Source: Pigmentibacter sp. JX0631
GTDB taxonomy: Bacteria > Bdellovibrionota_B > Oligoflexia > Silvanigrellales > Silvanigrellaceae
Reading direction: 5' to 3'
DNA: 64,000 bases
Assembly (NCBI RefSeq): GCF_029873255.1
Contig: NZ_CP123622.1
Coordinates: 1,452,501 to 1,516,500 of the forward strand
Shown: one piece after another, positions 10,724 through 52,732 of the stretch
Layout of the letters: each line of letters opens with the position of its first letter
How positions within the stretch are numbered: position 1 is the stretch's first letter
The notes under the pieces: model-generated
The model's input: only the letters and a program-made list of their open reading frames with translations
What the model was told of the DNA's origin: nothing
The model's database searches: none
Position numbers and translations under genes: made by a program

Positions 10724-12085
10724 TTAATTTACCTTACCTTCATAGGATGAAATACCTTCAACTTTCCAATGCCCTGAATGAATTACTTTATCTAATTCGA
10801 AATTCTGAGAGCTATTTGCTAGATAGTGAATATTTCTTAAAATTATCAAAGCATCAAAAATTTTTTCTTCTTCATTATAGTCATTGTCTTTTGGTTTTAT
10901 TAAGTCTTCAAAGTAGTCTCTAAATTTACCATTTTTTGAAATATATTTAATAGAATTAAAACTACTATTATTGGATGATGAAAAAGACAAATTTTTTCCG
11001 GTATAAATAACTGGAATAGAAAAAATATTTGCTAAATAATTTAAATCATTTTTATCTTTAAAACTTTCAGGAACTATTATTGAATGAACTAAATCTCTAA
11101 AAATTAATTTTTCAGCGGCTTCTGAAAGGCTACCTTCATCAAGATTAGACTCAATTGGAATAATATTATATTTCACTCCATTAACTGCTGGTGACGCCAA
11201 AAAGCTTGATATAGATCGCAAAATATTTTGATTACTTTCCTGTCTATTTTTATTTATTGGAAGAATTATTCCAATTCTCATTTCTAAAGGGTCATCGCTT
11301 ATTAATTTTATAATTCTTGTTCTAATTTTATCATTTGATAAATTTATACCAAAATTTAATAATAAACTATCTCTATTAGAAATAATATTCTTTTCTAATA
11401 TATTTAGAGCAAGCTGTAAATCACCTTCTTTTATTTTTGCAAGCAAAACATTTTCAATAAAATTTGCTTGAAACTCATTGTCAATATTTTTATCAAAATT
11501 TAGAACTGAAAGCCTTGATTCAATATCTTCTACTTTTATCCTTTTATTTGAAGTATTTAACATATTTACTTCTATAAAATTGTTTTTTTTCATGAGAGCA
11601 AGTAATTGTTTTAAAAAATTTATTTCTTGTTCTTTATTTAATGATATTCTAGAAATTTCAGCAGATATTGCTAAAAATTTTGCTAAATAAATAGGTTGTA
11701 AATTTGGTATCCCAATTTTTTTAATTAAGTTTAAGCCATTTTTATAATCACTTTTCATATAATATAACTGTAACAATGCATATGAACAAATCGAATTCAT
11801 TGCAGAAGGAAGAATATCTTCTACCAAAGATTCTTCTAAATATTTTAGATTGAAATCAATGTTTGCATTACTATTATTTATTAAAGCAACTCTACATTTT
11901 GCTATAGCAATTTCTTTTTTAAGAGAAAAATCATTTGAAATAACATTTTTATAAAACAGTGTAGCCTGTTTAAAATCCTTATTATAAAAAAAAGTCTCAG
12001 CTTTTTCAAAAGATGAGACTTGGCCAACAACTATAAGCGGAAAAAGTATAATAGAAATAATAAAAACTTTACTAGTCTGGAGCAC
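10724..12085 (-). CDS. Secreted LpoA-like protein (TPR-like plus periplasmic-binding fold)
   Basis: A probable periplasmic protein of about 453 residues. The proposed GTG start at 12085 opens a signal peptide (VFIISIILFPLIVVGQ). The longer frame from 12148 would place 21 polar and aromatic residues before it and overlap grpE by 77 bases. After the signal comes a helical TPR-like part (FEKAETFFYNKDFKQA), then from about residue 275 MRIGIILPINKN, the opening of a type I periplasmic binding fold as in penicillin-binding-protein activator LpoA and branched-chain amino-acid binding proteins. The second half appears short. It overlaps the grpE end by about 14 bases, so translational coupling is likely. 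Function beyond the fold is uncertain. Confidence 0.6.
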   Translation of the reverse strand: MLQTSKVFIISIILFPLIVVGQVSSFEKAETFFYNKDFKQATLFYKNVISNDFSLKKEIAIAKCRVALINNSNANIDFNLKYLEESLVEDILPSAMNSICSYALLQLYYMKSDYKNGLNLIKKIGIPNLQPIYLAKFLAISAEISRISLNKEQEINFLKQLLALMKKNNFIEVNMLNTSNKRIKVEDIESRLSVLNFDKNIDNEFQANFIENVLLAKIKEGDLQLALNILEKNIISNRDSLLLNFGINLSNDKIRTRIIKLISDDPLEMRIGIILPINKNRQESNQNILRSISSFLASPAVNGVKYNIIPIESNLDEGSLSEAAEKLIFRDLVHSIIVPESFKDKNDLNYLANIFSIPVIYTGKNLSFSSSNNSSFNSIKYISKNGKFRDYFEDLIKPKDNDYNEEEKIFDALIILRNIHYLANSSQNFELDKVIHSGHWKVEGISSYEGKVN

Positions 12086-12689
12086 CAACTCTAACCATAG
12101 CTGTACGCAATATTCTATCGCCAATTTTATAGCCGGCCATAAATTCATCTATCACAGTTTCCTGAGCATAAGTTGAGTCCACTACTTTTGCAATTGCATT
12201 ATGATATGCAGGGTTAAAAGGAGCATTTTTACCAGGAAGTTTTTCAATTCCATGTTTTTTTACAGTGTCCTGGAATACTTTTGAAACAAGCTGAACACCT
12301 TCAACAATTCCTGCTACTTTTTTCCCTTCTTCAGTTTCAAAGTTTATTTGAGAACTTTCAATGGCAGACATTGCCTTATCAAAGGCATCAATGACAGGAA
12401 GAAGATCTTTCGCAAACTCTTGAATTGCATAAAGACGAGTATCTTGTTTCTCTTTTTCCATACGTTTTCTAGTATTTTCAAAATCAGCGGCTATCCGAAG
12501 CATTCTATCATGCGTTTCAGCTAATTTGGCCTGAGTTGAGGCGCATTCTGCCTCCAAAGCTGCTATTTTCTCAGCTTCTTCACCCAATATTTCAGAAGCA
12601 TTTTCTTCGCCATTTTTATTGGGATCGGAAGTTGTATCACCAGATTGAACTTCTTCGGACGTGTAACTTATTTTATTGTGTTTTAACAT
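12072..12689 (-). CDS. grpE: Nucleotide exchange factor GrpE
   Basis: Exchange factor that releases ADP from DnaK. The acidic N-terminus (GEENASEILGEEAEKIAALE) leads into a long coiled coil ending with ADFENTRKRMEKEKQD. The beta-domain contains the family core NPAYHNAIAKV and ends in GYKIGDRILRTAMVRVG. The 205-residue length is normal. GAGGGAA precedes the ATG. Unlike the common hrcA-grpE-dnaK-dnaJ layout it has no chaperone partner next door; it is followed by the LpoA-like gene. It diverges from serS across 179 bases. Confidence 0.95.
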   Translation of the reverse strand: MLKHNKISYTSEEVQSGDTTSDPNKNGEENASEILGEEAEKIAALEAECASTQAKLAETHDRMLRIAADFENTRKRMEKEKQDTRLYAIQEFAKDLLPVIDAFDKAMSAIESSQINFETEEGKKVAGIVEGVQLVSKVFQDTVKKHGIEKLPGKNAPFNPAYHNAIAKVVDSTYAQETVIDEFMAGYKIGDRILRTAMVRVGAPD

Positions 12690-14504: not shown

Positions 14505-15500
14505 ATGAAAAATATATTCGTCCAATTCTTCGTTACTTTATTCTGTGTTTTTATAATTGAAAATGTTTTCCCGTCTTCGAAAGATATTGTTGTCATAGAA
14601 AGCTATAGCAAAAGTCACAAGTGGGATACTGATTACTGCAAAGCTTTATCTGAAAAGCTTGGGAAAAAATATAAACTCACTTTTTTTGAAATGGATACTA
14701 AAAGAATTCCCAAAACTGAACATGAAAAAATGGCTGCAAAGGCATGGGAATTGATTCAACAAATAAAACCAATTTTAGTTATTCTTGGTGATGATGCTGC
14801 CCTAAAATTTGTAGGCCCCAACCTTGAAAATAATAAAATACGTTCAGTGTATTTAGGTATTAACAATAATCCAAGAGCATATTTTGAGAATGCTCCTAAG
14901 TATTTAACTGGAATTTTAGAAAGACCTCTAATTCGAAGATCTGCTCTTTTCATAAAAGAAATTATTCCAACTGCAAAAAATGTACTTATTATGTTTGATA
15001 GCGATAGAACCTCTGAAATAGTATATGAAGACTTTTTTTCCAGCAAACCTTCTGTTGTATTCAGTGGAATAAATTATGATATTTTTTTAAATAAAACTTT
15101 TCTTGAATGGCAAAAACATATAAGCAATGCACCAAAAAAATATGATGCTATTATAACTGGACTTTATCAAAGTATAACAGATAAAAAAGGGAAAAATGCG
15201 GACGAAGATAAAACAATTTCTTGGACATCTCAAAACTCTAAACTTCCTTTGTTTGCTTTTTGGGATGTTACAGTAGGTAAAAACAAAGCACTAGGAGGGC
15301 TTGTTATAACAGGATATACCCAAGGAAAAGCAGCCGCTGAAGTAGCAGAAAAACTTCTAGCCAGTCCAAATTTACTGCCAAGCTCACTTTTTCCAGTTTA
15401 TTTACAAGAAGGTATATTTCTTTTTAGCAATCATGAAGTTAAAAAATTTAATATAAATATCCCTAGTGATATTAAAAAAGATAGTAAATATGTTGATTAA
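14505..15500 (+). CDS. Periplasmic substrate-binding protein, ABC_sub_bind type
   Basis: A 331-residue secreted protein. Residues 1-24 form a signal peptide (FVQFFVTLFCVFIIENVFPSS). The mature part resembles the ABC transporter substrate-binding family PF04392: VVIESYSKSHKWDTDYCKAL at the start, then ILVILGDDAALKFVGP and, near the C-terminus, LGGLVITGYTQGKAAAEVAEKLL, which is the characteristic ending. TTGGAG sits ahead of the ATG. No permease or ATPase gene is next to it, so it may be an orphan receptor or serve a sensor kinase. The ligand is unknown. It overlaps the end of the convergent phosphopantetheinyl transferase gene by 4 bases. Confidence 0.8.
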   Translation: MKNIFVQFFVTLFCVFIIENVFPSSKDIVVIESYSKSHKWDTDYCKALSEKLGKKYKLTFFEMDTKRIPKTEHEKMAAKAWELIQQIKPILVILGDDAALKFVGPNLENNKIRSVYLGINNNPRAYFENAPKYLTGILERPLIRRSALFIKEIIPTAKNVLIMFDSDRTSEIVYEDFFSSKPSVVFSGINYDIFLNKTFLEWQKHISNAPKKYDAIITGLYQSITDKKGKNADEDKTISWTSQNSKLPLFAFWDVTVGKNKALGGLVITGYTQGKAAAEVAEKLLASPNLLPSSLFPVYLQEGIFLFSNHEVKKFNINIPSDIKKDSKYVD

Positions 15501-16273
15501 TAGGAATGATCTAAAAAAATAGTTTCATAATCTTGTATTTCTTCTTTCTGAGAAAAAGCCAAAGCGTAATTATCATTAAAATTAACTATATAATTATTCC
15601 ATTTTGAAAAATTTGATTCTTGATCACAATCAGCTAAATTTAAAATTTTAGGCTGTAATGATTTATTGTTCAAAATACTTAACAAATTAGGAGAAAAAAA
15701 CAATCCAACCCCAATCCCCTTTAAAATTGCTTCTTTTAATGACCAAACTTGATAAAAATAATTTACTTTATCTTGAAATAATAGTAATTTATTAAAGTAT
15801 TGCTCTTCATAATCAGAAAATATTTGAGACTTTAAGGATTCGAAATCAACTAAAGTATCTTTATATTCAATATCAATTCCTATTTCATTAATAAAAGATA
15901 TACCTATTGCCAAATATTCTTTAGAGTGAGATATATTAAAAAATATTTTTTTATTAAATTTATCTATATTAACAAAAGGTTTTTTATATTTACCAGAATA
16001 GAATTCAATTAATTTATAACTTAAATTTAATTCACTAGAAAGTATTTTTTTTATAAAAATTCTTGTCATTAAATACCTGATTGTATCATTTAAAAATAAA
16101 AACTTTTCCGCTTTTATTATTTCATCATCGTTAATATATTCATTAAAATTATTTTTTAATACAATGTTAAACATAAAATTCTTAAACTCAAATTCACTAT
16201 TTTTGAGAAATGGATTCGTATTTAAATATGGTAATTTTATAATAAATATTTTAGACTGTAATAAATTCTTCAC
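15497..16273 (-). CDS. 4'-phosphopantetheinyl transferase superfamily protein (Sfp type)
   Basis: Expected to transfer phosphopantetheine from CoA to a serine of a carrier protein. The double-domain Sfp layout is visible: FFNISHSKEYLAIGI, then the metal-binding GIDIEYKD, and YQVWSLKEAILKGIGVGL, matching the W-x-x-K-E-A motif. The 258-residue length fits Sfp rather than the shorter AcpS. It starts 3 bases after the ammonia-lyase gene, in one operon with it and the sulfur-enzyme fusion. No carrier protein, ketosynthase or NRPS gene is in the window, so its partner is elsewhere. Confidence 0.88.
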   Translation of the reverse strand: MKNLLQSKIFIIKLPYLNTNPFLKNSEFEFKNFMFNIVLKNNFNEYINDDEIIKAEKFLFLNDTIRYLMTRIFIKKILSSELNLSYKLIEFYSGKYKKPFVNIDKFNKKIFFNISHSKEYLAIGISFINEIGIDIEYKDTLVDFESLKSQIFSDYEEQYFNKLLLFQDKVNYFYQVWSLKEAILKGIGVGLFFSPNLLSILNNKSLQPKILNLADCDQESNFSKWNNYIVNFNDNYALAFSQKEEIQDYETIFLDHSY

Positions 16274-16276
16274 AAA

Positions 16277-17788
16277 CTACCTATAGTTTTCAAAAATGAA
16301 ATCTCTTGCAATTTTTATATCGTCCGAAAAAAATCTGTCGCTTTCATAAAACTCAATCTTTGTTCTTAAGTTTTTGTAGATACTTAAAAGTTTTCCTGAA
16401 AATTTCTTAATATTTCTTAAATCACATGCTTGTAAAGCTGCAAGAAATTCAATTGCAACAACATAAGCCGCATTTTCTGTCATATCTAACAATCTATAGG
16501 CAGCATGAGTAGCCATACTAACATGATCTTCCTGATTTGCAGAAGTTGGAATACTATCAACTGAACAAGGAAATGATTTTGATTTATTTTCACTTACCAA
16601 TGCTGCAGCAGTTACTTGAGCTATCATAAATCCCGAATTTAATCCACTATTATTAACTAAAAAAGGCGGTAAACCACTTAAATTCGAGTCTAGTAAGATT
16701 GAAATTCTTCTTTCAGATAGTGATGAAATTTCTGTACAAATAATAGCCAATATGTCTGCAGCGATAGCTACAGGCTCAGCATGAAAATTTCCGCCGGAAA
16801 GAAACTCATTCGATTCAAAAATTGAAATTGGATTATTTGTTACAGCATTTGCTTCTATTTCTAAGGTTTTTTCAATAGCATTTAATTGCTCAAAACAAGC
16901 ACCTAATACTTGTGGAAGACATCGAAAAGAATAAGGATCCTGAATTCTACCAGATTTATTTAAACACTCAATTTCTATCCCGTCAGCAAGAAGATTACGC
17001 ATTTTTTCAGCAATTATTATTTGCCCTTGGTGACCTCTTAATTCATGTATTCTTTTATCAAATGGTTCTGTATTGCCTTCAATAGCTATGAGGGAAAAAG
17101 CGCTTGCTTCTAAACATGCTGACATAATTGTTTGTGTTTTAAATAGAGATATTAAGGCAATTGCTGTCGATACTTGCGTCCCATTTAACAATGATAACCC
17201 TTCAAGCGGTTGCATTTCTAATTTGACTAACTTGCACTCCTCTAAAGCCTGTGACGCAGAAATTATTTTTCCATTTTTTCTAACACTTCCAATCCCTATT
17301 AATGGGGCAACCAAATGAGCTAACGGCGCTAAATCACCAGAAGCGCCTACTGATCCTTTAACTGGAACACAAGGGTAATATTCTTTATTAATTAAAGTTA
17401 AAAGAGAGTCTAAAACCTCAAAACGTATTCCAGAATATCCCCTTGCTAAACTAGAAATTTTCATTAACGCTATTAATCTTACTGACGAATCATCAAAAAA
17501 TTCACCAACTCCTGTGCAATGCGATTTAATTAGGTTATGTTGCAAAGTTGTTAAATCTTTTAATTCTATCCTAGTAGATGCTAATTTACCAAACCCAGTA
17601 TTCACTCCATAAACACTTTTTAAACTATTATTACTTAACAAATTTTTTATATTTTCTACTGACTGATTCATCGAAGTTTTTGCTTCACTACAAAGAACAT
17701 ATTTTTCATATTTACCAAAGTAAATATCTTTTAAATTTGAAATACATAGTTTACCTGGATTAATTATAAAATTATTGCTATTATTCAT
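16277..17788 (-). CDS. hutH: Aromatic amino acid ammonia-lyase, histidine-type
   Basis: Removes ammonia from an aromatic amino acid using an MIO cofactor made from Ala149-Ser150-Gly151 in GSVGASGDLAPLAH. Tyr60 in VYGVNTGFG is the expected catalytic tyrosine. The substrate-selectivity pair in HNLIKSHCTGVG is Ser89-His90, as in histidine ammonia-lyases, which points to histidine-to-urocanate rather than tyrosine. The 503-residue length matches HutH. No hutU, hutI or hutG is adjacent. Instead it lies between the sulfur-enzyme fusion (33 bases upstream) and the phosphopantetheinyl transferase (3 bases downstream). Tyrosine ammonia-lyase remains possible, since such enzymes occur in pigment clusters. 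Confidence 0.85.
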   Translation of the reverse strand: MNNSNNFIINPGKLCISNLKDIYFGKYEKYVLCSEAKTSMNQSVENIKNLLSNNSLKSVYGVNTGFGKLASTRIELKDLTTLQHNLIKSHCTGVGEFFDDSSVRLIALMKISSLARGYSGIRFEVLDSLLTLINKEYYPCVPVKGSVGASGDLAPLAHLVAPLIGIGSVRKNGKIISASQALEECKLVKLEMQPLEGLSLLNGTQVSTAIALISLFKTQTIMSACLEASAFSLIAIEGNTEPFDKRIHELRGHQGQIIIAEKMRNLLADGIEIECLNKSGRIQDPYSFRCLPQVLGACFEQLNAIEKTLEIEANAVTNNPISIFESNEFLSGGNFHAEPVAIAADILAIICTEISSLSERRISILLDSNLSGLPPFLVNNSGLNSGFMIAQVTAAALVSENKSKSFPCSVDSIPTSANQEDHVSMATHAAYRLLDMTENAAYVVAIEFLAALQACDLRNIKKFSGKLLSIYKNLRTKIEFYESDRFFSDDIKIARDFIFENYR

Positions 17789-17821: not shown

Positions 17822-20167
17822 TTAATAATTAATTGAATTTTCATACTTAAGTCGTGTCAAAGCAAGTCCACCACTTATACTCCAAACATTTTTGATTCCA
17901 ATCCTTCTTAGACTTTTCGCAATTGCTAGTGAGCGATTACCCGTAGAACAAAGCAAAGCTATAGGTTTATTTTTATTTTCATTATTAATTACATGATTAA
18001 AAAAATTAACAATTTTAGTTAAAGGAATATTTTTTGGAGCTTTTTTAAAATTTAAAATTTTCCAATCTTTAAATAGAATAGATTCAGCATTTTCTCTTAT
18101 ATCAATTATATCGTAAATATTTTCATCTAAGTCATCAATAGTTATAATTGGTAAACTTTTATCTGTTAATACAGAATTATTAATTGTCCCACAAACTAAT
18201 TTTCCTTGGATATCTGTTTCTAAAAGTTGAGAATCTATCAATTTTTTTTCTGTGAAAAAGTCAATTTCATTCATTAAATTTACTGGATCGAATAATTTTT
18301 TTAGCAAGATATTATTTCTTTTTTCGGTACCCCATGTCGTAACAATTGATTGATTATAATCATGTGCTGGGCAAAGAACAGTATTTGCATGAAGCTTATT
18401 ATCAAGATTTCTTAGTGTATCATAAAATAATTTATTATCACTTATGCTAAAATCAGTTCTGCCTAAGCCACCTATGAGAACAGTATCCCCAATAAATACA
18501 CATTCAATTTTTTCATCTATTGAACATTTATTTTTTAAAAAATAGCTAACACTATCTAAAGTATGGCCTGGTGTTTCAAATCTTTCTAATTCCCATGTGC
18601 TTGAGTTAAAATTGAGAATGCATGTCTGTGAATTCCATCCTAAGGGATCAAATGCAGTATCTTTTAGTGATAGTTTTTCTAAAAGAATAGATCTTGCTGA
18701 AAGGTGATCCGCATGGGAATGTGTATCTAAAACAGCTTGTAACTCTAAATTCTTACATTTTATAAAACTAATTAATCTATCAATACTCTCAAAAGTTGGA
18801 TCAATAATGACACAAGATTTTGTATTAATATCAGAAATCAACCATGTATTTGAAGAATCATATTCTAATTGGGTTATTCCATGAATTAAAGAATTTTCAG
18901 ATTGATTTTCTGATTCATCACTAATTTTACAGGTTAAGTTTAAGCATGAATTACGCAAAGCCTTTCCTGCTGCTTGAATATTTTTTATCCCTAGAAATAT
19001 TTCTTCTTGAGAAGTCGTCAATCCAAAAGAAAGTCTAATTGCTGAGGCTTTTCTCCACTCTGGCAAATTCATTGCTTCTAAAACATGACTGTATTCAAGG
19101 GATTTAGAATTACATGCAGAACCTCCACTTAAACTCACTCCTGCAGCATCAAATACCCGCATTAATTCTTTTGATGAAAATCCATAAACTGAAAAATTCA
19201 AAGTAGTTGCAACAGAATTTTCCATGTCTGTATTTATTTCAATAGTTGGAAAAGCTTCCATTAAAGTGTTTAATAATAACTTTCTATAATTTAGTAATTC
19301 ATGATTAGATTTAAAATGAAAATCTATACAGCCATCTTTAATTTTATTTAGCTTTTCCAATATAACACCAAATGCGGCTATTCCTGGATGATTTTCGGTT
19401 CCAGCACGAATTCCTCTTTCTTGTCCTCCTCCAACTATTAATGAACACTGAGGCGCGTTATCTCTCAAATATAAAAATCCGACACCTTTTGGAGCATGTA
19501 CTTTATGTCCACTAAAAGTGGCATAGTCTACACTTAATTCATTAAAATTTAATGATAATTTCCCTAAAGCTTGAACACAATCAACTAACCAAAAAACTTT
19601 ACTAGCTGAACTCCTAATTATTTTTTCTATTTCTTTCAAATTTGTAATTAACCCTGTTTCGTTATTAACCGCCATAGTGCATAAAAAAACAGTTTCATTT
19701 AGATACTCTTTAATTTCATTTAAGTTTACATGTCCTTTGTCATCAACATTAATTTGCATAATTTCAATATTTAAATCTAAAATTTTTTTCCAATGTAATA
19801 TTGAATTATAAACAGCTTTATGTTCTGTTTTTGAAATTAATATTTTCTTTTTTTGAAAAGATACATCTTTTTTAGATTGTTCTTTAATCCAATTTAATAC
19901 AGAAAGAACAGAAATTTGAATAGCTTCTGTTGCACCACTAGTAAAATATATTTCTGATGACTTAACATTTAGCAACTTACTCGCTTGTAACCTTGATTCC
20001 TCTAATATTAATTTAGCTTCTGCTCCTGCAATATGTGAACTACTAGGATTTGCATATACTCTTTCCATTGACCAAAGAGCTGCTTGGCAAGCATCTTTTA
20101 AAATTGGAGCAGTTGCGTTGCAATCAAAATATACTTTTGAATTACCATTAATTTGATTTTTGCTCAT
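17822..20167 (-). CDS. Cysteine desulfurase / persulfide-dioxygenase-like / rhodanese fusion
   Basis: A 781-residue three-domain protein. Residues 1-405 are a class V, PLP-dependent cysteine desulfurase: PLP lysine Lys222 in FSGHKVHAPKG, catalytic Cys352 in SGGSACNS. Residues 428-660 are a metallo-beta-lactamase fold with HSHADH at 483-488, GH at 534-535, D561 (IGDT) and H602 (CPAHDY), as in ETHE1-type persulfide dioxygenases. Residues 675-780 are a rhodanese domain with active Cys740 in LLCSTGNRS. All key residues appear intact. The combination suggests extraction, oxidation and transfer of persulfide sulfur in one chain; this is inference. It heads the operon with the ammonia-lyase and phosphopantetheinyl transferase, and diverges from msrB. 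Confidence 0.88.
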   Translation of the reverse strand: MSKNQINGNSKVYFDCNATAPILKDACQAALWSMERVYANPSSSHIAGAEAKLILEESRLQASKLLNVKSSEIYFTSGATEAIQISVLSVLNWIKEQSKKDVSFQKKKILISKTEHKAVYNSILHWKKILDLNIEIMQINVDDKGHVNLNEIKEYLNETVFLCTMAVNNETGLITNLKEIEKIIRSSASKVFWLVDCVQALGKLSLNFNELSVDYATFSGHKVHAPKGVGFLYLRDNAPQCSLIVGGGQERGIRAGTENHPGIAAFGVILEKLNKIKDGCIDFHFKSNHELLNYRKLLLNTLMEAFPTIEINTDMENSVATTLNFSVYGFSSKELMRVFDAAGVSLSGGSACNSKSLEYSHVLEAMNLPEWRKASAIRLSFGLTTSQEEIFLGIKNIQAAGKALRNSCLNLTCKISDESENQSENSLIHGITQLEYDSSNTWLISDINTKSCVIIDPTFESIDRLISFIKCKNLELQAVLDTHSHADHLSARSILLEKLSLKDTAFDPLGWNSQTCILNFNSSTWELERFETPGHTLDSVSYFLKNKCSIDEKIECVFIGDTVLIGGLGRTDFSISDNKLFYDTLRNLDNKLHANTVLCPAHDYNQSIVTTWGTEKRNNILLKKLFDPVNLMNEIDFFTEKKLIDSQLLETDIQGKLVCGTINNSVLTDKSLPIITIDDLDENIYDIIDIRENAESILFKDWKILNFKKAPKNIPLTKIVNFFNHVINNENKNKPIALLCSTGNRSLAIAKSLRRIGIKNVWSISGGLALTRLKYENSINY

Positions 20168-20406: not shown

Positions 20407-20949
20407 ATGATAGATTATCGAAGAATAATTTTTTCTTTTTTAGCTTTTTTTATAATGGTTGGGTATGCTATGGCTGACAAAACAGATTCAAAATATGAAA
20501 ATGTAGATAAAAATAAAAAGATAAAAGAACTTTCACCAATGCAGAGAGAAGTTACTCAAAATAATGGCACTGAAGCTCCCTTTAAGAATGAATATTGGAA
20601 TAACAAAGAGGAAGGAATCTATGTTGATGTTGTTACGGGGGAACCTTTATTTAGTTCTTTAGATAAATTTGATTCTGGGACAGGCTGGCCAAGCTTCACG
20701 AAACCAATTGATAATAAATTTGTCCAATTTAAAGAAGATAAATCTTTAGCCATTGAAACACGGACTGAAGTGAAATCAAAATTTGGAAACTCTCATTTAG
20801 GACATGTATTTGATGATGGTCCAGGGCCAACGAAAAAAAGATATTGCATAAATTCAGCTGCTTTAAAATTCATTCCTGTATCTAATTTAGAAAAAGAAGG
20901 TTATGGACAATATCTTTCCTTATTTAAAAAACTAAAAAAAGAAAAGTAA
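20407..20949 (+). CDS. msrB: Periplasmic peptide-methionine (R)-S-oxide reductase
   Basis: Reduces methionine-R-sulfoxide in proteins. A signal peptide spans residues 1-23 ([10 protein letters not shown] before DK), so it acts outside the cytoplasm. The MsrB core is complete: [31 protein letters not shown] and catalytic Cys147 in [11 protein letters not shown]. The two CxxC zinc pairs of many MsrB proteins are missing, and no clear recycling cysteine is seen. CAGGAG precedes the ATG and a TATAAT lies at 20371-20376. It is divergent from the sulfur-enzyme fusion, a plausible oxidative-stress or sulfur theme, and ends 7 bases from a convergent gene. Confidence 0.93.
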
Positions 20950-21976: not shown

Positions 21977-23416
21977 ATGAAACTAGGAATAAAATACTTA
22001 TTTATACTATTCTTCAATATATTATTAACTAATCAGGCCATGACAAAAAACTATTGCCCTCCTGAATTAGATGCTTTAGATTGTATAAAATTTTTAACAG
22101 CAAAATATTCTTTAAATTATTTAAAATTAGGAGAAGAAGTACTTCAAAATGAACTTAAAGTAATCGAGTACGAATTAGTTTCACAAAAATACCCAAACAA
22201 CGAATATTATCCAAGTACAGAATGGAAACATAATTTAAAAATATTTATTCCAAAATCTTATTCAAAAAATACAACACCTATTTTTTATGTAGACATAGAT
22301 ATTAAAAATAAACAGGATGAAGAATTTTTTGTAAATATTTCAAATAATACTTCTTCAATTGTTATAAGATTAACAATGGTTCCAAATCAACCTATAAGTT
22401 TCCCAAATATTGCAAATTTATTTGAAGATGATCTAGTCGCCCACACATGGAAAGTATTTTTAGATGATCCAATTGAAAATAAAACAATGCCCTTACATTT
22501 ACCAATGGCATTGAGTATTATTCGCGCTTTTGATCTTATTCAAGCCGAGTTTTCAGCAGATAACTATAACATGAGTAGTTTTATTTTATCAGGTGCATCC
22601 AAAAGAGGTTGGGCGGCTTGGCTTGCCACACTTGCCGATGAAAGAGTAAAAGCTATTATTCCTATAGTTATTGACGTCTATAATATTAAAAATCAATTTC
22701 TAAAATTAAATAAAGTTTATGCTAACCACTGGCCTATTGCATTGTATCCTTACTATAAAATAAATTTATATAAATATCTTGATGCTGAGAACTTTAACTC
22801 TTTAATTCAAATTGAAGATCCTTTAGCATATAAAAATTCAGGTAAACAAAAAAGATTAGAAATTCCAAAGTATATCGTTAGTTCAAGTGGAGATGATTTC
22901 TTCTTGCCAGATTCAATATATGATAGTTATATTGATATCCCTGGTGAAAATATTTTTCGCTATATCCCAAACTCAACACATTTTATAAATAAGAGTATTA
23001 TTGAAGAAAGTATTATTCAATATGCTAATGCACTAAATTCTAACACTCCTGGTAAAAAATTAAACTTTAAATTTTATGAAGATAAGTTTGGAGAGAAAGT
23101 CAAAATAGTAATTGAGCTTAATAAAAGCATTAAATACATATCACTTTGGGAAGCAATAAATTCTCATGAAAGAGATTTCCGTTACTCTTGTGGAGTTCAA
23201 TATAAGAAAAGAAAATTAGAGATAAAAAACAATGCAAAGTTTTTTTCTATTTGGATAAAAAAACCTAAATTAGGGTGGAAAGCATCGTTCATTGAAATAA
23301 CACATGACAACAATTTTATTCAAACAACTCCTAATATAGTGTTACCTAAAAAAGAATATCCTATGAATATCATAAATAACAAAAGCAAATATTGCAGTTC
23401 TCTTCCATTACATTAA
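21977..23416 (+). CDS. PhoPQ-activated pathogenicity-related (PqaA-type) secreted protein
   Basis: A 479-residue protein with a signal peptide (LFILFFNILLTNQAM). It matches the PhoPQ-related alpha/beta-hydrolase-like family (PF10142): FILSGASKRGWAAWLATLAD with the nucleophile-elbow-like Ser, then VKAIIPIVIDVYN, and SSSGDDFFLPDS followed by RYIPNSTHF, which would hold the Asp and His. The last 120 residues form a beta-rich tail, as in the family. AGGAG precedes the ATG. In Salmonella the founding member is PhoP-regulated and linked to antimicrobial-peptide resistance; that regulation cannot be assumed here. Substrate is unknown. Confidence 0.85.
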   Translation: MKLGIKYLFILFFNILLTNQAMTKNYCPPELDALDCIKFLTAKYSLNYLKLGEEVLQNELKVIEYELVSQKYPNNEYYPSTEWKHNLKIFIPKSYSKNTTPIFYVDIDIKNKQDEEFFVNISNNTSSIVIRLTMVPNQPISFPNIANLFEDDLVAHTWKVFLDDPIENKTMPLHLPMALSIIRAFDLIQAEFSADNYNMSSFILSGASKRGWAAWLATLADERVKAIIPIVIDVYNIKNQFLKLNKVYANHWPIALYPYYKINLYKYLDAENFNSLIQIEDPLAYKNSGKQKRLEIPKYIVSSSGDDFFLPDSIYDSYIDIPGENIFRYIPNSTHFINKSIIEESIIQYANALNSNTPGKKLNFKFYEDKFGEKVKIVIELNKSIKYISLWEAINSHERDFRYSCGVQYKKRKLEIKNNAKFFSIWIKKPKLGWKASFIEITHDNNFIQTTPNIVLPKKEYPMNIINNKSKYCSSLPLH

Positions 23417-23694: not shown

Positions 23695-24514
23695 ATGATT
23701 AGTAAAAAATTTATTTATAATTTTTAGTTCTTTATTTTTTACACCAATATTTGCAACAGAATCTAAGTTATACAATAAAAATATAAATTTAAATAACAAT
23801 ACTGAGCATTTAATAGATTCAAAAATTAACAATTTAGTCAATAATGATTCTCAGGAATCACTTAAAGATAAATATCCTATTGATAATAATAAAATATACT
23901 TTTTTGAAATGGAAAAATCTAAAGAATTTCGAAAAAAAATTTCAGTATCTTTTGACAAAGCTTATTTAGAAACAGAAAATTTAAATAAAATAAAATATTA
24001 TGAAGAAATTTCTGAATATTATAAAAGATGTGATATTAAAAATGGAAAATTTAACATAATTCAACTTAATCAAATTAAAAGTTTAAGCTTAGAAATTGGT
24101 GATGAAATTAGCAAGATGACAAGTAAGATATACGAAATTAAAAAAGAAATCACAGAAAAACCTACTAGAGTTGAATTATATGTTCAATACTATATCAATT
24201 ATAATTTACTTATTCTTATGAAAAATGCTTATTATGCCACCTACAATGCTGCACCACCCTATAAATTTGCTGAAAATGCAAAATCTGCGGCTGCAATTTA
24301 TAATAATAATTCCAAGGCTGATTATGCAAGAGAACTAAGAAAAAAAGCTGATGAGGCTTACAAATTAGTTGATAAAGCATATAAACTATATGCTGGTGCT
24401 GATAAAAGTAATAAGAATGAATTTTTAGAATTAAGAAAAAGATTCTATGAAGCTGAAGATCTTGCTAGAAAATTAGATGATGAAGCAGACTTTGCATTTA
24501 ATTCTATAAGGTAA
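23695..24514 (+). pseudogene. Secreted helical protein interrupted by a frameshift in its signal peptide
   Basis: The ATG at 23695 follows a strong AGGAGA and reads MISKKFIYNF before a TAG at 23725. Dropping one T from the five-T run at 23721-23725 continues without a stop as SSLFFTPIFATESKL and into the open frame ending at 24514. The corrected product of about 273 residues has a signal peptide (cleavage after IFA) and a long charged helical C-terminal region rich in Ala, Lys, Tyr and Glu (ADYARELRKKADEAYKLVDK). Without the shift, only a leaderless 201-residue piece starting at 23909 is open, and it has no RBS. This could be a real mutation, a phase-variable tract or a sequencing error. Function unknown. 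Confidence 0.7.
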
Positions 24515-24710: not shown

Positions 24711-27700
24711 TTATAAAGAATTTTTCTTATTTAGATGAAATTTTAAAGAATTTAAAGTATGCAACATAAAAGCATTTGATTTTTCTTCATTTTCTTTACT
24801 AATTCCTATTAATCTATTAGATTGCATATGTATAAAACTTACAATAATCCTATTTCTATCATTATAAATCTGTTTCAACTCAATATTTTTAAATAATTGA
24901 TTTGAGTATTTAATTATTTCATTTCTTCTTTTTTGAATTAACTCTTCTAAATTTGAAAATATTTTATCCTTATACCAATGTAAATTATTTTTCATAAATA
25001 AATCTATAATATATTTTCTACTTTTTCTAAATTCTTCGATAAATTTATTTTTATCATTTCTTAACATCAACCAATTTAATTTTTCATCAAAATTAAAAGA
25101 AAAATTCTCTAAAATTTCTAAAGCTAAAAAACTGTTAATATGAATTAAAAGGTACTCTTTCTCAATTACTTTTTTATTTTTAATTAATAAACAAGCTATT
25201 TCGCTATCATACATAAATATTTTTTCTGCAAGGTGAATTAAATCAGGACCTCCATATCTTTCAATTTCAGGTTCGTAAGAATCTATACAACATGAGTTAA
25301 GAATACCATTTTTAGACACTTCATCAAAATATGAATTATATTTTTCCAATAATTCATTAGAGTATTTTTTATCTTTCAATAAAATACGAAGTCTGATATG
25401 TTTTTTTGGATCTTGATACCTAATAAAAAACCAAGTTTCAATTTCTATTTCTTTCTTAACTTCTTGAATAAAATTAACAATACATTTAGAAATAAATTCA
25501 TCTTCTCTATAACTATTGAAGTACAATTTTGAATAAAACCATTCACCACCAGGTATAAATTTACGAGTACAATTCAGAGAATTAAATTTTCTAATAATTT
25601 CTATTGATTTATCAGTTTTTTTGTTAGATTTCAAAGGAGATACTATTTCATAACTAAATACATTTTTTAGCCCATAGGAATTCATAAAAGAAATTTCTAA
25701 GTTTTCCTGTAGTAATAGTTTTCCATGCCGAATAAACTCTTTTTTTAGCTCTTTTACGTGATCTTCTTTTTTTAAATCTAATAAAATTTTATTATCAGCA
25801 TGAATCAAATTGATGTAATCTGGGACATTCCAAAATTTTTTCCATGCACAAAAAATTAAGAGAAAATCTTTTTCTAGATCATATTCTTGTTTAAATTGTT
25901 TTAAAGATACTAAAGAAAGGTTCCAGGATTTTGGATAAATTATTATGTTTTCATACTCTATTCTCGGCACAAAAGTTAAATTACTAAATTCAGTTAAAGG
26001 TATGCGATTCCAAAGAGTAAATCTTTCAAAACTAACTTCTCTCAGAAAGCGGACAATATTAGGCGCATTCTTAAAATTAAGCATATTCGATGCAACAAAA
26101 ACAACTTCTTTTTGATACTTCAAAGATTTGAAGTATAGTCTTTTTCTATTAGCACAAACAACAATATCGTTTAGATATAAATTGGAATTATTTTTTTCTT
26201 GAAAAGTATCCAAATGAAGCTGATAACTCCAATAACTTTTACCAAGAACAACATTAGCTCCTCTAGAATTTTGAGGTGAAAATATTAGCTCGCAAAATAT
26301 TATTTCAGGATACTTATCTTCAAAATTTTTTATATGAGAAGATAGATCTGATATATTTTCCTCTGAAAATAAATTTGTAAATCTACCAAAACTTGCACAA
26401 ACGCTATATGAATTTTGAATTGAAGAAAGATATATTTTTAAATTGTTATTATCTTCACCATTAATTATTTGAAAATATACTTCTATAGAATCTGGAATAT
26501 TATCAGTATTTATATTTTGATCTTGAATAAATTTTAAATCTTTTCCTGATAATGTTATGCATTCTGTTTTTTCTTGATATGAATAGAAAATTTTATCATA
26601 TAAAAATTTTATTCTATCTTCACTTTCTGCATCTTTAGTTATTTTTTTTCTACTACTCTGTGGAAATTTATAGTCTGCTGGAGCTCCTAATCCCAGATTT
26701 TCATCAAGTAATTCCAGAATTCCCACTTCCTTTGCAAAACCATATTTAATTAAAAATTCTTCATGATACTTTCGTATTTCGTTAAATCCTAGATATAATT
26801 TAGTAAAAGATATAAAAAATTCTGATACTCTACTTAAATTCAATTTAAATGCATTTTCTAGTGAAATTTTTTTATTGATTGAAGTACTTAAATCTATTTG
26901 TAAAGGGCTTTTAACATAATTACTTTTTTGCATTTCCTCAATAATAATATTTAGTTCATTTATACCTTCACCAATTTCTAATTTTTCATATATATCAATC
27001 TGCTTTTTTAATTTCAGTAAGTACTTATAATTTTCTTCTTGCTCTGGCCAATAAGAAAGTTTTAAAATCAATTCAGACAAAATATCAAATTTTCCTAAAA
27101 TTGGTTTAATTTCAGTTATAATGAATTCATTATTAATTAATTCTTGAAGATATTCATATATATTCACATTATTATTCAATTTAAAATTATTTTTTATCTT
27201 CTCAACAAGTTTATTAATCTCAAGTTCATTCTTTAAATTTTCAAAAATAAATTTCATTAGTGAATTTATTTTTATTGACATATCTTTATCAAAATTTAAT
27301 TTTTTTTCCCCTTGTTCAGTATTTATTACACTATTAGAGGAGTAAGAAAGATAAATTCTATCACCATTTTCATATGCTATTGGACTAAATTTTATTTTTA
27401 TATTTGGAGTCTTAGTGATATCTTCTTCTATCTTTTTTACAAATTTATATATCCACTCCATATCAGGTCGAACTGCTTTGTAATACTTAGAATTATCAGT
27501 AGTCAAGTTTTGTACATCAGAGTAATATCCCATATTAACTGCAGCGAAATATCCATATGGAGTTGCTCTAGTGCACGAACGAGAAAAATATTTTAAAATA
27601 CCTGATTTTAATTGATCTATTTTTTTTAAATCTTTTATTTTTTCTTTTTCAAATAATTCTAAACTATTATAAAGTGATTTACTTGATGCTAAAATTGCTT

Positions 27701-27833
27701 CTTTAAATTTCCCATAATATTTTTGCTTCAATAAATATTCCAATATATCTTCATTACTATTTAAATAATCAATAAAGTAATTATTTGGAAAAAGAGGCGT
27801 TCTTAGCATAAAAAATGAATTTGCACTATACAT
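24711..27833 (-). CDS. Class I lanthipeptide dehydratase (LanB, full length)
   Basis: A 1040-residue LanB-type enzyme. Family members use glutamyl-tRNA to glutamylate Ser/Thr of a precursor peptide and then eliminate glutamate to give dehydroamino acids. The N-terminal glutamylation region shows the hallmark R85-S-C-T-R-A-T-P-Y-G and, near residue 640, IPLTEFSNLTFVPRIEYEN. The C-terminal elimination (SpaB-C/thiopeptide-type) domain begins near residue 760, with RYQDPKKHIRLRI near 804 and YEPEIERYGGPD near 860. Length and motifs indicate an intact two-function enzyme, not a split form. RBS is weak (TTGGAT). No LanC, protease or exporter is adjacent. It diverges across 583 bases from a small-peptide/oxygenase gene set, the likely partner locus. 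Confidence 0.88.
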   Translation of the reverse strand: MYSANSFFMLRTPLFPNNYFIDYLNSNEDILEYLLKQKYYGKFKEAILASSKSLYNSLELFEKEKIKDLKKIDQLKSGILKYFSRSCTRATPYGYFAAVNMGYYSDVQNLTTDNSKYYKAVRPDMEWIYKFVKKIEEDITKTPNIKIKFSPIAYENGDRIYLSYSSNSVINTEQGEKKLNFDKDMSIKINSLMKFIFENLKNELEINKLVEKIKNNFKLNNNVNIYEYLQELINNEFIITEIKPILGKFDILSELILKLSYWPEQEENYKYLLKLKKQIDIYEKLEIGEGINELNIIIEEMQKSNYVKSPLQIDLSTSINKKISLENAFKLNLSRVSEFFISFTKLYLGFNEIRKYHEEFLIKYGFAKEVGILELLDENLGLGAPADYKFPQSSRKKITKDAESEDRIKFLYDKIFYSYQEKTECITLSGKDLKFIQDQNINTDNIPDSIEVYFQIINGEDNNNLKIYLSSIQNSYSVCASFGRFTNLFSEENISDLSSHIKNFEDKYPEIIFCELIFSPQNSRGANVVLGKSYWSYQLHLDTFQEKNNSNLYLNDIVVCANRKRLYFKSLKYQKEVVFVASNMLNFKNAPNIVRFLREVSFERFTLWNRIPLTEFSNLTFVPRIEYENIIIYPKSWNLSLVSLKQFKQEYDLEKDFLLIFCAWKKFWNVPDYINLIHADNKILLDLKKEDHVKELKKEFIRHGKLLLQENLEISFMNSYGLKNVFSYEIVSPLKSNKKTDKSIEIIRKFNSLNCTRKFIPGGEWFYSKLYFNSYREDEFISKCIVNFIQEVKKEIEIETWFFIRYQDPKKHIRLRILLKDKKYSNELLEKYNSYFDEVSKNGILNSCCIDSYEPEIERYGGPDLIHLAEKIFMYDSEIACLLIKNKKVIEKEYLLIHINSFLALEILENFSFNFDEKLNWLMLRNDKNKFIEEFRKSRKYIIDLFMKNNLHWYKDKIFSNLEELIQKRRNEIIKYSNQLFKNIELKQIYNDRNRIIVSFIHMQSNRLIGISKENEEKSNAFMLHTLNSLKFHLNKKNSL

Positions 27834-28334
27834 GTTTTAAATCCAAGTTAAAAATTAATATAAAAAATTAATATGTATACTAAAACAGAAGAATACTTGA
27901 TTTTTTTGATGTTCTCAACAAGAATCGCATACTAAGTTTACATAAAGAAAACGTGTTAAGCTTTTTATTAACTGAAGAAAGCTATCCCCATAACTTTAAA
28001 AAATAATTTTATGACACTTCTATTTTTAAAAATTTCAAAATTTATTCCATAGTTCAATCACCGAATAAAAATTATACTAAATTTTTAAGCATAATAATAT
28101 TATTAATGCATACCAACAAAAATTCAACTAGCAAAATTTTTAAATTACTTGCTATTTTTATATTTTTTGTTAAATTTTATTTCAATCCAAAAATTAATTT
28201 TAGACTATTTTTAGCGAAACAAGTTTTTGTAATTTTTTTCCTAGAAAAAATTCATATATTAAATATTATTTTTTAAAAATATCTATATTTCAAAGTATAC
28301 TACAGTTTAGTAACAAATTATTTATTCTATAGTA

Positions 28335-28363
28335 TTGACAGCAAAAAATTTTTTTGTAATAAT
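28335..28363 (+). promoter_or_regulatory. Sigma70-type promoter of the small-peptide operon
   Basis: A perfect TTGACA at 28335-28340 is followed after 17 bases by AATAAT at 28358-28363 (or after 16 by TAATAA). The predicted transcript starts near 28370, leaving a leader of about 45 bases before the peptide's ATG. A perfect -35 box stands out, though the -10 is imperfect. Confidence 0.6.
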
Positions 28364-28405
28364 TTTTAAAATTTCGTGTACGTGTGTTTAAATAAAATTT
28401 GCAAC

Positions 28406-28412
28406 AAGGAGG
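28406..28412 (+). promoter_or_regulatory. Consensus Shine-Dalgarno site AAGGAGG
   Basis: A full seven-base match to the anti-Shine-Dalgarno sequence, 4 bases before the ATG at 28417. It decides the start of the small peptide: an upstream in-frame TTG at 28399 lies before this site and cannot use it. It implies strong translation. Confidence 0.8.
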
Positions 28413-28416
28413 AATT

Positions 28417-28635
28417 ATGAGTAGTCAAGTCATGGTTTTGGATGATATCAATTCGCTAAGATCTGAATTAAATAAAATCCCAAGAGCAAAACTTCAATTT
28501 TCAAAAACGGTGATAGATTTATTGAGTTCTTACAATATTAGTGTAACAGGTGATCTACTCGGTAAACTGACACTAGCTACTTGTAATGAGATAGTTAGCA
28601 GTGACGATGACGTTCGCACAGTTTGGACAAACTAA
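28417..28635 (+). CDS. 72-residue peptide, candidate RiPP precursor
   Basis: A small acidic peptide with an ideal RBS and promoter. The first half is helical and leader-like (VLDDINSLRSELNKIPRAKL, then FSKTVIDLLSSYNISV). The last 30 residues are rich in Thr, Ser and Asp with a single Cys: LTLATCNEIVSSDD then VRTVWTN. It matches no family I know. Its stop codon is 2 bases from the oxygenase start, and a LanB dehydratase is divergent upstream, so a modified-peptide precursor is a natural reading: Ser/Thr for dehydration, Asp/Asn/Pro for hydroxylation. There is no Gly-Gly cleavage site in the tail (only single Gly residues near GDLLGK). It could instead be a small structural or regulatory partner of the oxygenase. 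Confidence 0.6.
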   Translation: MSSQVMVLDDINSLRSELNKIPRAKLQFSKTVIDLLSSYNISVTGDLLGKLTLATCNEIVSSDDDVRTVWTN

Positions 28636-28637
28636 CA

Positions 28638-29285
28638 ATGAATCTTTCAGGTTCAGAACTTGAAGGAAGATTTAAAGAAGTTGCAAAATCGATTTATATT
28701 GGTGAATTAATATCTGAGTCATTTTGCAACGATCTTCTTTTAGAGATTCGTGATTTTCAGGATTGGAAACAAGCAAAAATTGCAATTTCAAGAAAAAATA
28801 ATGAAGGAATAAGTGAAATACTTGAAGTTATAGATACCAATCACCGAAGCGCGAATAGTATAAGACTTTCTGATTTAAATTCAAATGAAATACCTATAAT
28901 TGTTCAGTCTTTAAAAAAAATTCAAACCTTAGTCGGGGAATTTGCTACAAAGGAATTTGGATTAACTTTCAATGAATTTGGAGATGCTGAACTCATTCGC
29001 TATAATGTAGGTGGTTTGTTTAAACCTCATACAGATGCACATAACGAGAATTCTCACAGAGCCCTGACAGTAATAACTTATCTTAATGATAATTATACTG
29101 GAGGAGAGACTTATTTTCCCGATCAAAATTATAAATGCATTCCTAAAACGGGACGTGTTTTATTTTTTCTTTCAAGTGAATTACATGCAAGTTTACCTAT
29201 AATAGAAGGAAATAAAAATATTATCGTTTTTTGGGCATTTTATCCAGGCTCAATTGGGCGTAAAAATATTAAAAGCTTTCCTTAA
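28638..29285 (+). CDS. 2-oxoglutarate/Fe(II) oxygenase, prolyl-4-hydroxylase-like
   Basis: A 215-residue member of the P4H-like 2OG-Fe(II) dioxygenase fold, which hydroxylates a peptide residue using 2-oxoglutarate and O2. The iron triad is His131-x-Asp133 in FKPHTDAH and His183 in SSELHASLPI, with Lys193 ten residues later as the 2OG anchor. The beta-barrel markers LTVITYLND and GGETYFPD are present. The ATG at 28638 is preferred to an in-frame TTG at 28623 that lies within the previous gene. It begins 2 bases after the small peptide's stop, so translation is probably coupled. The substrate is unknown; the neighbouring peptide is the obvious candidate. Confidence 0.88.
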   Translation: MNLSGSELEGRFKEVAKSIYIGELISESFCNDLLLEIRDFQDWKQAKIAISRKNNEGISEILEVIDTNHRSANSIRLSDLNSNEIPIIVQSLKKIQTLVGEFATKEFGLTFNEFGDAELIRYNVGGLFKPHTDAHNENSHRALTVITYLNDNYTGGETYFPDQNYKCIPKTGRVLFFLSSELHASLPIIEGNKNIIVFWAFYPGSIGRKNIKSFP

Positions 29286-29323
29286 AAAATATAATTATTT
29301 CTAAACAAAAAAAGTGCAGAGAT

Positions 29324-29339
29324 TCTCAAGTTTTTGAGA
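29324..29339 (+). promoter_or_regulatory. Hairpin just upstream of the next gene's RBS
   Basis: TCTCAA-GTTT-TTGAGA forms a perfect 6-bp stem and tetraloop, 4 bases ahead of AAAGGAG. Without a T-run it is more likely a processing, stability or translation-tuning element within the operon than a terminator. Confidence 0.4.
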
Positions 29340-29355
29340 CCTCAAAGGAGTTGAT

Positions 29356-30426
29356 TTGACAAAATTATGCTCAACTTACATTCCAAAATTCATTCCAAAA
29401 TTCATTCCAAAAAAAATACTGAAAGCTATGCGAGCAAATCTATCCCCATGGCTCGGAGCTAATAATTACGATAATTGGTTAAATATTATCAGCTTAATGC
29501 CGGAAACTAGTCGTTTATATTTAGAAGTGCATCCTTTTTCAAAAAAACCAAGATGTGATATCATAGTGAGCATTTTGCAATCTGATGGTTCATTATCAAG
29601 TTGGTTAAATCACTCTAAATCTAAAAGATCTCTTAACTGGCAAAAGACGTCCTCACTTTTAGAGAAATGGCAGGATCAAATAAATTCAAAAGAAGGCAAT
29701 TTGCGAACAATTTGTTTTCTTTTATGGCTAGAATTTGATATTTTTGCTGACCAAACCGATATTGGTGATCCTTCGCTTTTTATTTCACTAACACCAAAAG
29801 ACAATATCAATGACCTTAAAGAGGAAATAAAAGTTTATCCTGAACTCTATGAAGCATTTTTAAATTTCCAAGAAACTATACAAAATAGTACTGAATTGTA
29901 TGAAAAAGTTATGAGATACAATCCAATAGCATTAGGAAATATTGGTCTTATGGCTTCACGACAAATTAAAAATGAAGCACTCCCACTAAGAAGTTGTTGG
30001 CGTTGTGATAATATTGACCATTTTTTTTATATTCTGAAAATAGCAAAAGTACAAATACAAAGTTCAATGTTAGCTTCAGAATTATGCTGGTTACAAAATA
30101 TAAGAGAATATATAAACTCTTATATGCTTCATTTAGATAATTATAAAAATTTTTCAGATGACTTTTCTTTAGAAGTAAATGTATTTCATCCTAATTTTAG
30201 TTTATCTGAAAAGAGAGAAAAAGCTATTTTAGATGAAGTAGAAAAACTCGGATTTTTGACTAATGAACAGAAGATTACTTTATTAAATTTCAGTAATTGT
30301 AATATAATTGATAATGAATTTAAATATTATTGTTCTCTTCATCACATAAAAATAAAAATAACGATGTATAAGATACAAGAAATAAAATGTTACTGGTTAG
30401 TAAGACCAAGTAGTGTAAAATTATAA
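29356..30426 (+). CDS. Unknown protein in the peptide/oxygenase operon
   Basis: A 356-residue soluble-looking protein that I cannot assign. The TTG start is supported by AAAGGAG five bases upstream; the first ATG lies 23 codons in, beyond a tandem IPKF-IPKF-IPKK stretch. The first domain contains RLYLEVHPFSKKPRCDIIVSI and a Trp-rich segment (SSWLNH, LNWQK, LEKWQDQ). The middle has RTICFLLWLEFDIFAD and NPIALGNIGLMASRQI. A late CWRCDN and YYCSLHHIKI do not give the zinc ligands of a LanC cyclase. Spacing to the oxygenase (70 bases) and to the GNAT (17 bases) puts it in the same operon. It may be a substrate-recognition or tailoring protein. Confidence 0.7.
   Translation: MTKLCSTYIPKFIPKFIPKKILKAMRANLSPWLGANNYDNWLNIISLMPETSRLYLEVHPFSKKPRCDIIVSILQSDGSLSSWLNHSKSKRSLNWQKTSSLLEKWQDQINSKEGNLRTICFLLWLEFDIFADQTDIGDPSLFISLTPKDNINDLKEEIKVYPELYEAFLNFQETIQNSTELYEKVMRYNPIALGNIGLMASRQIKNEALPLRSCWRCDNIDHFFYILKIAKVQIQSSMLASELCWLQNIREYINSYMLHLDNYKNFSDDFSLEVNVFHPNFSLSEKREKAILDEVEKLGFLTNEQKITLLNFSNCNIIDNEFKYYCSLHHIKIKITMYKIQEIKCYWLVRPSSVKL
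29380..29415 (+). repeat. 12-bp tandem repeat encoding IPKF-IPKF-IPKK
   Basis: ATTCCAAAATTC occurs twice in perfect tandem (29380-29391, 29392-29403) with a third, partly diverged unit ATTCCAAAAAAA. It is in frame near the N-terminus, so copy-number change by slippage would add or remove four residues without breaking the gene. Confidence 0.75.
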
Positions 30427-30443
30427 AATAAGGAATATTCAAT

Positions 30444-31226
30444 ATGAATAATTTGCCCATTGGATTAAGGTCGGATATTTTATTTTTTAATTTTAGAAAT
30501 AATGTAATAGAGAAAAATGACTACATAGTATTGTATACTTTAAATAATCTAGATTTTTTTTGGGGTAATTACTTGATTTTGAAAAATCCTTTATCAATTG
30601 GAGATTTTGAAAAATGGACAAAATATTATCAAAATGAATTTTCAAATATTTCTAGTAATAAACAAATGTGTTTTAGTTGGCCTGGTGATCTGAGTTATAT
30701 TGAACTGAATAAATTTAAAGAAAATAATTTCATTTTTTTTGACAGATTAACAATGACTGCGAGAAAAAAAGATATCAAATGTAAATATTATAACAATGAA
30801 GTTCTCTGTAAGAGAATGGTAACAAATGATGATTGGGAACAAGTTTTAAATTTTCAATTTAAAATTAATGAATTTTTAAATAAAAAAAAATCTAAATCAT
30901 ATATAGAAAAAAGAGTTTTTGAATTTAAATCTTATACCGATAATAACCACGGATATTGGTATGCAGCATTTTTAAATGGTGAAATTATTTCAGATGTAGG
31001 ATTATACTGGAATGATGAGTTTGCTCGTTTACAAAATTTAAAAACATTAAAAGAATATAGAAAATTAGGAGTTGCACAAACATTAATAAAATATGCAATT
31101 GAAGATTCAAATCAGGAGTTTTTTACTCTTGAAGCAGAAGAAAATGGTTTGGCAATAAATATGTATAAATCAATAGGATTTACAGTTCAGGAAAAGAAAT
31201 ATGGTTTATATAGTTCTAGTATTTAA
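30444..31226 (+). CDS. GNAT-family N-acetyltransferase
   Basis: A 260-residue acetyltransferase with a GNAT fold in the C-terminal half: GYWYAAFLNGEIISDVGLY, then the acetyl-CoA pyrophosphate loop YRKLGVAQTLI, and the ending AEENGLAINMYKSIGFTVQ. The N-terminal half looks like a second, degenerate GNAT-like unit. The ATG follows AAGGAAT. As the last gene of the small-peptide operon it may acetylate the modified peptide or confer self-protection. These are inferences from position. Confidence 0.85.
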   Translation: MNNLPIGLRSDILFFNFRNNVIEKNDYIVLYTLNNLDFFWGNYLILKNPLSIGDFEKWTKYYQNEFSNISSNKQMCFSWPGDLSYIELNKFKENNFIFFDRLTMTARKKDIKCKYYNNEVLCKRMVTNDDWEQVLNFQFKINEFLNKKKSKSYIEKRVFEFKSYTDNNHGYWYAAFLNGEIISDVGLYWNDEFARLQNLKTLKEYRKLGVAQTLIKYAIEDSNQEFFTLEAEENGLAINMYKSIGFTVQEKKYGLYSSSI

Positions 31227-49882: not shown

Positions 49883-49915
49883 AATATCTCCATAACATTT
49901 TTAAAGTAAATTAAT

Positions 49916-51883: not shown

Positions 51884-51929
51884 TTTTACTCCAAAAAATT
51901 AATTATGAGAGAGAAAATCTAAAATTAAA

Positions 51930-52679: not shown

Positions 52680-52732
52680 AATATTTTCCTCAATTTTATA
52701 TTTTTAAATCAAATTGTTATCCAAAAAATTCT

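Follow-up and report, generated by a model that had tools for sequence, protein, structure and literature searches.

The window, by which we mean the whole stretch of 64,000 nucleotides analysed here, encodes a real, conserved and apparently undescribed fusion of a cysteine desulfurase (CD), a persulfide dioxygenase (PDO) and a rhodanese (Rhd), a variant of known two-domain fusions. The most likely function of the protein would be that of a cysteine-fed persulfide donor whose built-in PDO clears low-molecular-weight persulfide as sulfite. The significance of the arrangement is that one chain joins the main cellular source of persulfide (the CD) to an enzyme that destroys persulfide, which suggests both that cysteine sulfur could reach sulfite directly and that persulfide could be prevented from leaking. 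The gene and its parts, in window positions, are:

17822-20167, minus strand: triple-fusion gene CD-PDO-Rhd, 781 amino acids (single ORF, Pfam domains, orthologues of equal length)
18953-20167, minus strand: CD domain, residues 1-405, NifS/IscS-like, class I (PF00266; structure match 1ecx, E 2.6e-58)
19502-19504, minus strand: codon of Lys222, the PLP lysine
19112-19114, minus strand: codon of Cys352, the persulfide-forming cysteine of the CD
18218-18886, minus strand: PDO domain, residues 428-650, ETHE1/type I PDO-like (PF00753; 4ysb_A, E 2.2e-23; 5ve3_B, E 4e-22; ETHE1 4chl, E 6.7e-16; ligands match those of AcPDO)
17849-18154, minus strand: Rhd domain, residues 672-773 (PF00581)
17948-17950, minus strand: codon of Cys740, the Rhd active-site cysteine, in the loop CSTGNRS

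The gene reads and translates as one intact open reading frame, with a GGAGG ribosome-binding site upstream of its ATG and 89 stops on the plus strand across the same positions, and its full-length form is single-copy and intact in the window genome (a single contig of 3.65 Mb). Pfam gives the order as Aminotran_5 at residues 12-390 (2.5e-57), Lactamase_B at 437-490 (1.1e-7) and Rhodanese at 680-768 (5.7e-8). The initial annotation was right to place a desulfurase, a PDO-like domain and a rhodanese in one chain, and equally so in its claim that the catalytic residues are kept (Lys222, Cys352, H483/H485/D487/H488 and Cys740). No frameshift joins separate genes: the chain is uninterrupted in four congeneric genomes (G002, G004, G005 and G006, at 55-85% identity), in about 79 contig loci and on three Pseudoalteromonas replicons. 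Measured against the nearest relative, dN/dS is 0.072 for the CD, 0.097 for the PDO and 0.096 for the Rhd, all far below 1, and all three domains are therefore under purifying selection in the window lineage. That chance or faulty assembly had fused separate genes is refuted by the presence of the same chain in some ninety independent assemblies, and these low ratios in each domain also speak against it; we regard the probability of such an artefact as negligible.

Class I cysteine desulfurases are recognised by a PLP lysine, a His, Asp and Gln around the PLP, and a catalytic Cys in an SxGSAC loop. The corresponding residues of the fusion (K222, H116, D196, Q199 and C352) are invariant in all 94 aligned fusion sequences, as is the Rhd cysteine in the 92 that reach it, which places the CD in class I, the NifS/IscS superfamily. 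It resembles the housekeeping IscS and NifS enzymes in its PLP lysine, its persulfide cysteine and this class assignment, but falls well short of all the NifS/IscS equivalog cut-offs: 285.6 against 530.75 bits for NifS (TIGR03402) and 225.2 against 643.2 bits for IscS (TIGR02006). It therefore forms a separate NifS/IscS-like subfamily. Separate SufS and IscS-like enzymes are also encoded in the window genome.

The middle domain has the 2-His-1-Asp iron ligands and second-shell Arg, Asp and His of a type I PDO. H483, H535 and D561, followed by R570, D572 and H602, correspond to H57, H113, D130, R139, D141 and H171 of the A. caldus enzyme AcPDO, a mapping based on motifs and on the intervals that follow the ligand Asp (9, 11 and 41 residues, identical from D561 in the fusion and in D130-R139-D141-H171 of AcPDO). 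Thus all six of the residues tested in AcPDO are present in the window protein, and R139, D141 and H171 are essential there (PMC6060420). Type I PDOs such as AcPDO, MxPDO (4ysb) and human ETHE1 (4chl) share these ligands and second-shell residues with the fusion, but are single-domain proteins. The best solved relatives are MxPDO and BpPRF (5ve3), and the domain reached neither the GloB equivalog (TIGR03413, 70.8 against a cut-off of 200.8 bits) nor the Blh sulfur transferase/dioxygenase (NF040641, 56.4 against 625 bits); by sequence, glyoxalase II is the more distant relative and the persulfide dioxygenases are the nearer. Elsewhere in the window genome, a separate 237-residue PDO/GloB-like protein (L138:4684-5397) is a second candidate PDO.

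The two halves of the protein are each already known from separate fusions. Its C-terminal half is collinear with residues 32-365 of the PDO-rhodanese fusion (PRF) BpPRF (5ve3/5ve4/5ve5), matching PDO, junction and Rhd end to end (E 4e-22); BpPRF lacks a cysteine desulfurase, such that the window protein, with its PDO followed by a C-terminal Rhd, is a PRF with an additional N-terminal CD and can be described as a PRF-like dioxygenase-rhodanese preceded, in the same chain, by a NifS-like desulfurase. In PRF, sulfur from thiosulfate has reportedly been proposed to feed the PDO. This collinearity opens the possibility that the Rhd either combines sulfite from the PDO with a second persulfide or supplies the PDO with sulfur drawn from thiosulfate, and S. 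aureus CstB, a type III PDO with a rhodanese domain, does turn two persulfides into thiosulfate (reviewed in PMC9774590). CstB, compared by description, resembles the fusion in holding a PDO and a sulfurtransferase in one chain, but its PDO is of another type and it has no CD. Such a role in thiosulfate chemistry would leave unexplained both the constant retention of the CD and the persistence of the Rhd in forms with a dead PDO (see below), and the two-domain CD-Rhd protein prefers cysteine over thiosulfate (PMC8931425), so we consider it unlikely. That two-domain protein, from Pseudorhodoferax sp. Leaf274 (WP_056898193.1; PMC8931425, PMC12319549), is the known counterpart of the other half. 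Likened by description, it too has a COG1104 (NifS/IscS-like) CD, then a C-terminal Rhd, and two catalytic cysteines; it differs in having two domains (54 kDa) with no dioxygenase between them, whereas the window protein carries C352 and C740 in one chain with a PDO intervening.

We propose that the protein is a persulfide relay within one chain, fed by cysteine and provided with an oxidative outlet, a reading that we regard as about evenly balanced between right and wrong. By homology, the PLP-dependent CD would take sulfur from L-cysteine, release alanine and hold the sulfur as a persulfide on Cys352, which would then be passed to Cys740 of the Rhd, either within the chain or across a CD dimer. 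From there, the sulfur would go to a thiol, most plausibly glutathione (forming GSSH, with GSH as the presumed acceptor), and/or to a protein acceptor. The PDO would then, as its homologues do, use O2 to oxidise GSSH, yielding GSH and sulfite, such that unused cysteine sulfur would leave as sulfite and not as sulfide or toxic persulfide; any physical channelling of the persulfide between domains is likewise conjectural. There is good support by analogy for the Rhd step, because the Pseudorhodoferax CD-Rhd protein has been shown to pass persulfide from CD to Rhd: this natural fusion moves cysteine sulfur in a manner that needs both cysteines, and hands it on to acceptors, with GSH among the working reductants (PMC8931425, PMC12319549). 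The conversion of GSSH and O2 to GSH and sulfite is the established reaction of PDOs (PMC12856154).

The fusion is carried by about ninety aquatic bacterial genomes among those examined. Three full-length copies, about 38-41% identical, were found by tblastn on large Pseudoalteromonas replicons, and a contig scan using an alignment-based pattern (peptide patterns from the single protein proved lineage-specific and gave no matches) returned 245 relatives of the CD segment, 80 of which were kept and examined. All 80 belong to Alteromonadales-type gammaproteobacteria (Shewanella, Colwellia, Pseudoalteromonas, Paraglaciecola and Psychrobium), and in 79 of them a single long ORF bears the CD signature; nearly all of these ORFs span the three domains, the exceptions being cut by a contig end. 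An even sample of Shewanella's class had the fusion in the centre genome only, among 369 genomes, and the family is thus patchy; in the sample of the window's phylum it occurs in 12 of the 14 genomes of the window's family and in none of the 44 others. In a tree of CD domains, a fully supported branch separates all the fusion members from other desulfurases. The fusion family is, on this tree, one lineage common to two distant groups, which suggests horizontal transfer between the Alteromonadales and the window's family. The initial annotation, which knew of no desulfurase in the same chain and raised the prospect that the architecture was already widespread and characterised, therefore stands in part: the architecture is indeed widespread, in the Alteromonadales and the window's family, and monophyletic, but the literature searched (mainly open-licence articles) yielded no published description or characterisation of a CD-PDO-Rhd fusion. 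In one Colwellia genome that carries the triple fusion, another 364-residue frame (G039:C1:334838-335809), separate from it, matches the PDO-Rhd half only, at 28% identity, and is a candidate stand-alone PRF.

Not all members of the family retain a working dioxygenase site. The PDO iron ligands are lost in two genomes of the window genus (G003 and G007, with a protein of 732 residues), in genus g4 (G010, G012 and G013) and in G011. Pfam did not detect Lactamase_B in either of the two PDO-dead fusions tested (L012 and L122), although their CD and rhodanese domains score normally, and a remnant of the first PDO strands can still be aligned. The window protein is 56% identical to L012 (from G007) in the CD and 44% in the Rhd, but 23% in the PDO. 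On the tree, which was built quickly and has some long branches, the pattern needs three changes of state, from which it appears that the iron site was lost about three times in the window's family with the catalytic residues of the CD and Rhd kept. The most secure of these losses is the one nested inside the window genus, and the least secure is that of G011, because its sequence runs up to a contig edge and its branch is the longest. We considered whether loss of glutathione might account for loss of the PDO and rejected this, as the PDO-dead genomes have a glutathione synthetase. This enzyme is found in 13 of the 14 genomes of the window's family; G009, the one well-covered genome of that family without the fusion, has no glutathione synthetase match.

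Losing the PDO ligands and keeping the CD and Rhd residues points to a conserved core that would run from cysteine through CD-SSH to Rhd-SSH (the first two steps above), with oxidation to sulfite an optional, accessory outlet that some lineages have lost. Read in this way, the same residues imply that channelling from cysteine to sulfite cannot be the family's invariant function. It is, however, chemically coherent and plausible for PDO-intact members. Repeated loss of the PDO with both relay cysteines kept amounts to a natural experiment on which activity is selected, and the pattern also favours a mainly biosynthetic role, in which CD and Rhd feed a specific acceptor (MnmA for tRNA 2-thiouridine, for example) the PDO being either a relic or a safety valve of minor importance. 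Against such a role, nearly all Alteromonadales members keep the iron ligands, and the remaining evidence comes from neighbouring genes and sulfur partners. The window genome has MnmA and no TusA, Pseudoalteromonas THAF3 has a TusA gene two genes upstream of its fusion, and in genus g4 a MnmC2-like methyltransferase gene (PF05430, 5.5e-15; NF033855, 92 bits and near full length, short of the cut-off of 136) overlaps the end of the PDO-dead fusion. However, the MnmC2-like gene adjoins the fusion in that one genus only, and almost all of the class lacks TusA whether or not the fusion is present, which indicates no special need and led us to reject the fusion as a TusA substitute. Thus, we hold a mainly biosynthetic donor to be possible but rather improbable. 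The MnmC2-like genes lie at L121:6109-7203 and L122:9882-10700, and the genomes concerned have another PF05430 gene elsewhere. Within the window's family, the only genome with a clear TusA is G009, which lacks the fusion; it is also the only one of the 58 genomes with a clear TusA, at L142 (G009:C166), near heterodisulfide-reductase-like genes.

Two further genes follow the fusion closely in the window:

16277-17788, minus strand: hutH, histidine ammonia-lyase, probable operon partner, 33 bp downstream of the fusion (TIGR01225, 590.6 bits, cut-off 539)
15497-16273, minus strand: 4'-phosphopantetheinyl transferase (PPTase), 3 bp after hutH (PF01648, 8.1e-15)

Within the window genus the order is fusion-hutH-PPTase in G000, G002 and G006, fusion-hutH in G007 and G003, and fusion-PPTase in G004 and G005, where hutH is absent beside the fusion. 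This tight spacing, and the PPTase adjoining the fusion in G004 and G005 too, would fit an operon that supplies sulfur to a carrier-protein pathway of specialised metabolism, but neither gene lies beside the fusion outside the window genus, the relatives share no neighbourhood, and no NRPS/PKS gene was seen beside the fusion; we consider this very unlikely. Clustering of neighbours across the loci gave genus-level neighbours only, and no operon partner common to all lineages. A divergent TauE/SafE gene (sulfite exporter family) flanks the fusion in the P. piscicida group, an adjacency confined to that group and compatible with sulfite as a product. We rejected TauE as a sign of sulfite production within the window's family, since it is near-universal there irrespective of PDO state. 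The neighbours thus hint at sulfite in one group and at tRNA thiolation in others, and leave the acceptor unsettled, as none is shared. On the other side of the fusion, an MsrB gene (window 20407-20949) is divergent to it, and in G004 and G005 an MsrA-like gene adjoins MsrB near the same place.

For the relay with an oxidative outlet, then, speak the conserved CD and Rhd residues, the AcPDO residues, the collinearity with BpPRF, the purifying selection and the distribution of glutathione synthetase. Against it, the PDO is not needed for the gene's retention in the lineages that lost it, the window genome has its separate 237-residue PDO-like protein, and TauE shows no correlation with PDO state within the family, its adjacency being a feature of one Pseudoalteromonas group. 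Additionally, Alteromonadales versions mostly have GRTNF where PDOs have GRTDF (81 of 94), and Ala in place of the Asp of the GRTD motif inactivated AcPDO (PMC6060420). A stronger form of the proposal is that one polypeptide would carry out the whole path from cysteine and O2 to alanine and sulfite, from CD through Rhd to PDO without release of sulfide. It would then be a self-contained cysteine sulfur oxidase, occurring in the window's family and across the Alteromonadales, and repeated loss of the iron site could turn it into a donor of sulfur only. We put this forward tentatively, as somewhat less than an even prospect. Carriers include culturable Shewanella and Pseudoalteromonas species, so these proposals are directly testable.

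Several other features of the window deserve mention. At 24711-31226, a full-length lantibiotic dehydratase (Lant_dehydr_N, 2.6e-116; Lant_dehydr_C, 6.5e-51) lies near a 2OG-Fe(II) oxygenase, an unassigned 356-residue ORF and a GNAT enzyme in a possible RiPP cluster, and beside it is a 201-residue ORF (23909-24514) with no family match. The ORF at 10724-12148 overlaps grpE by 77 bases if it begins at its listed start, and the true start is probably downstream. Positions 21977-23416 encode a probably secreted protein of the PhoPQ-activated pathogenicity-related family (PF10142, 3.5e-95). Finally, 49271-54712 holds a tandem duplicated pair of subtilases with a P-domain (655 and 659 residues), each followed by a secreted protein of 203 or 249 residues without a Pfam match, possibly a propeptide-like inhibitor.
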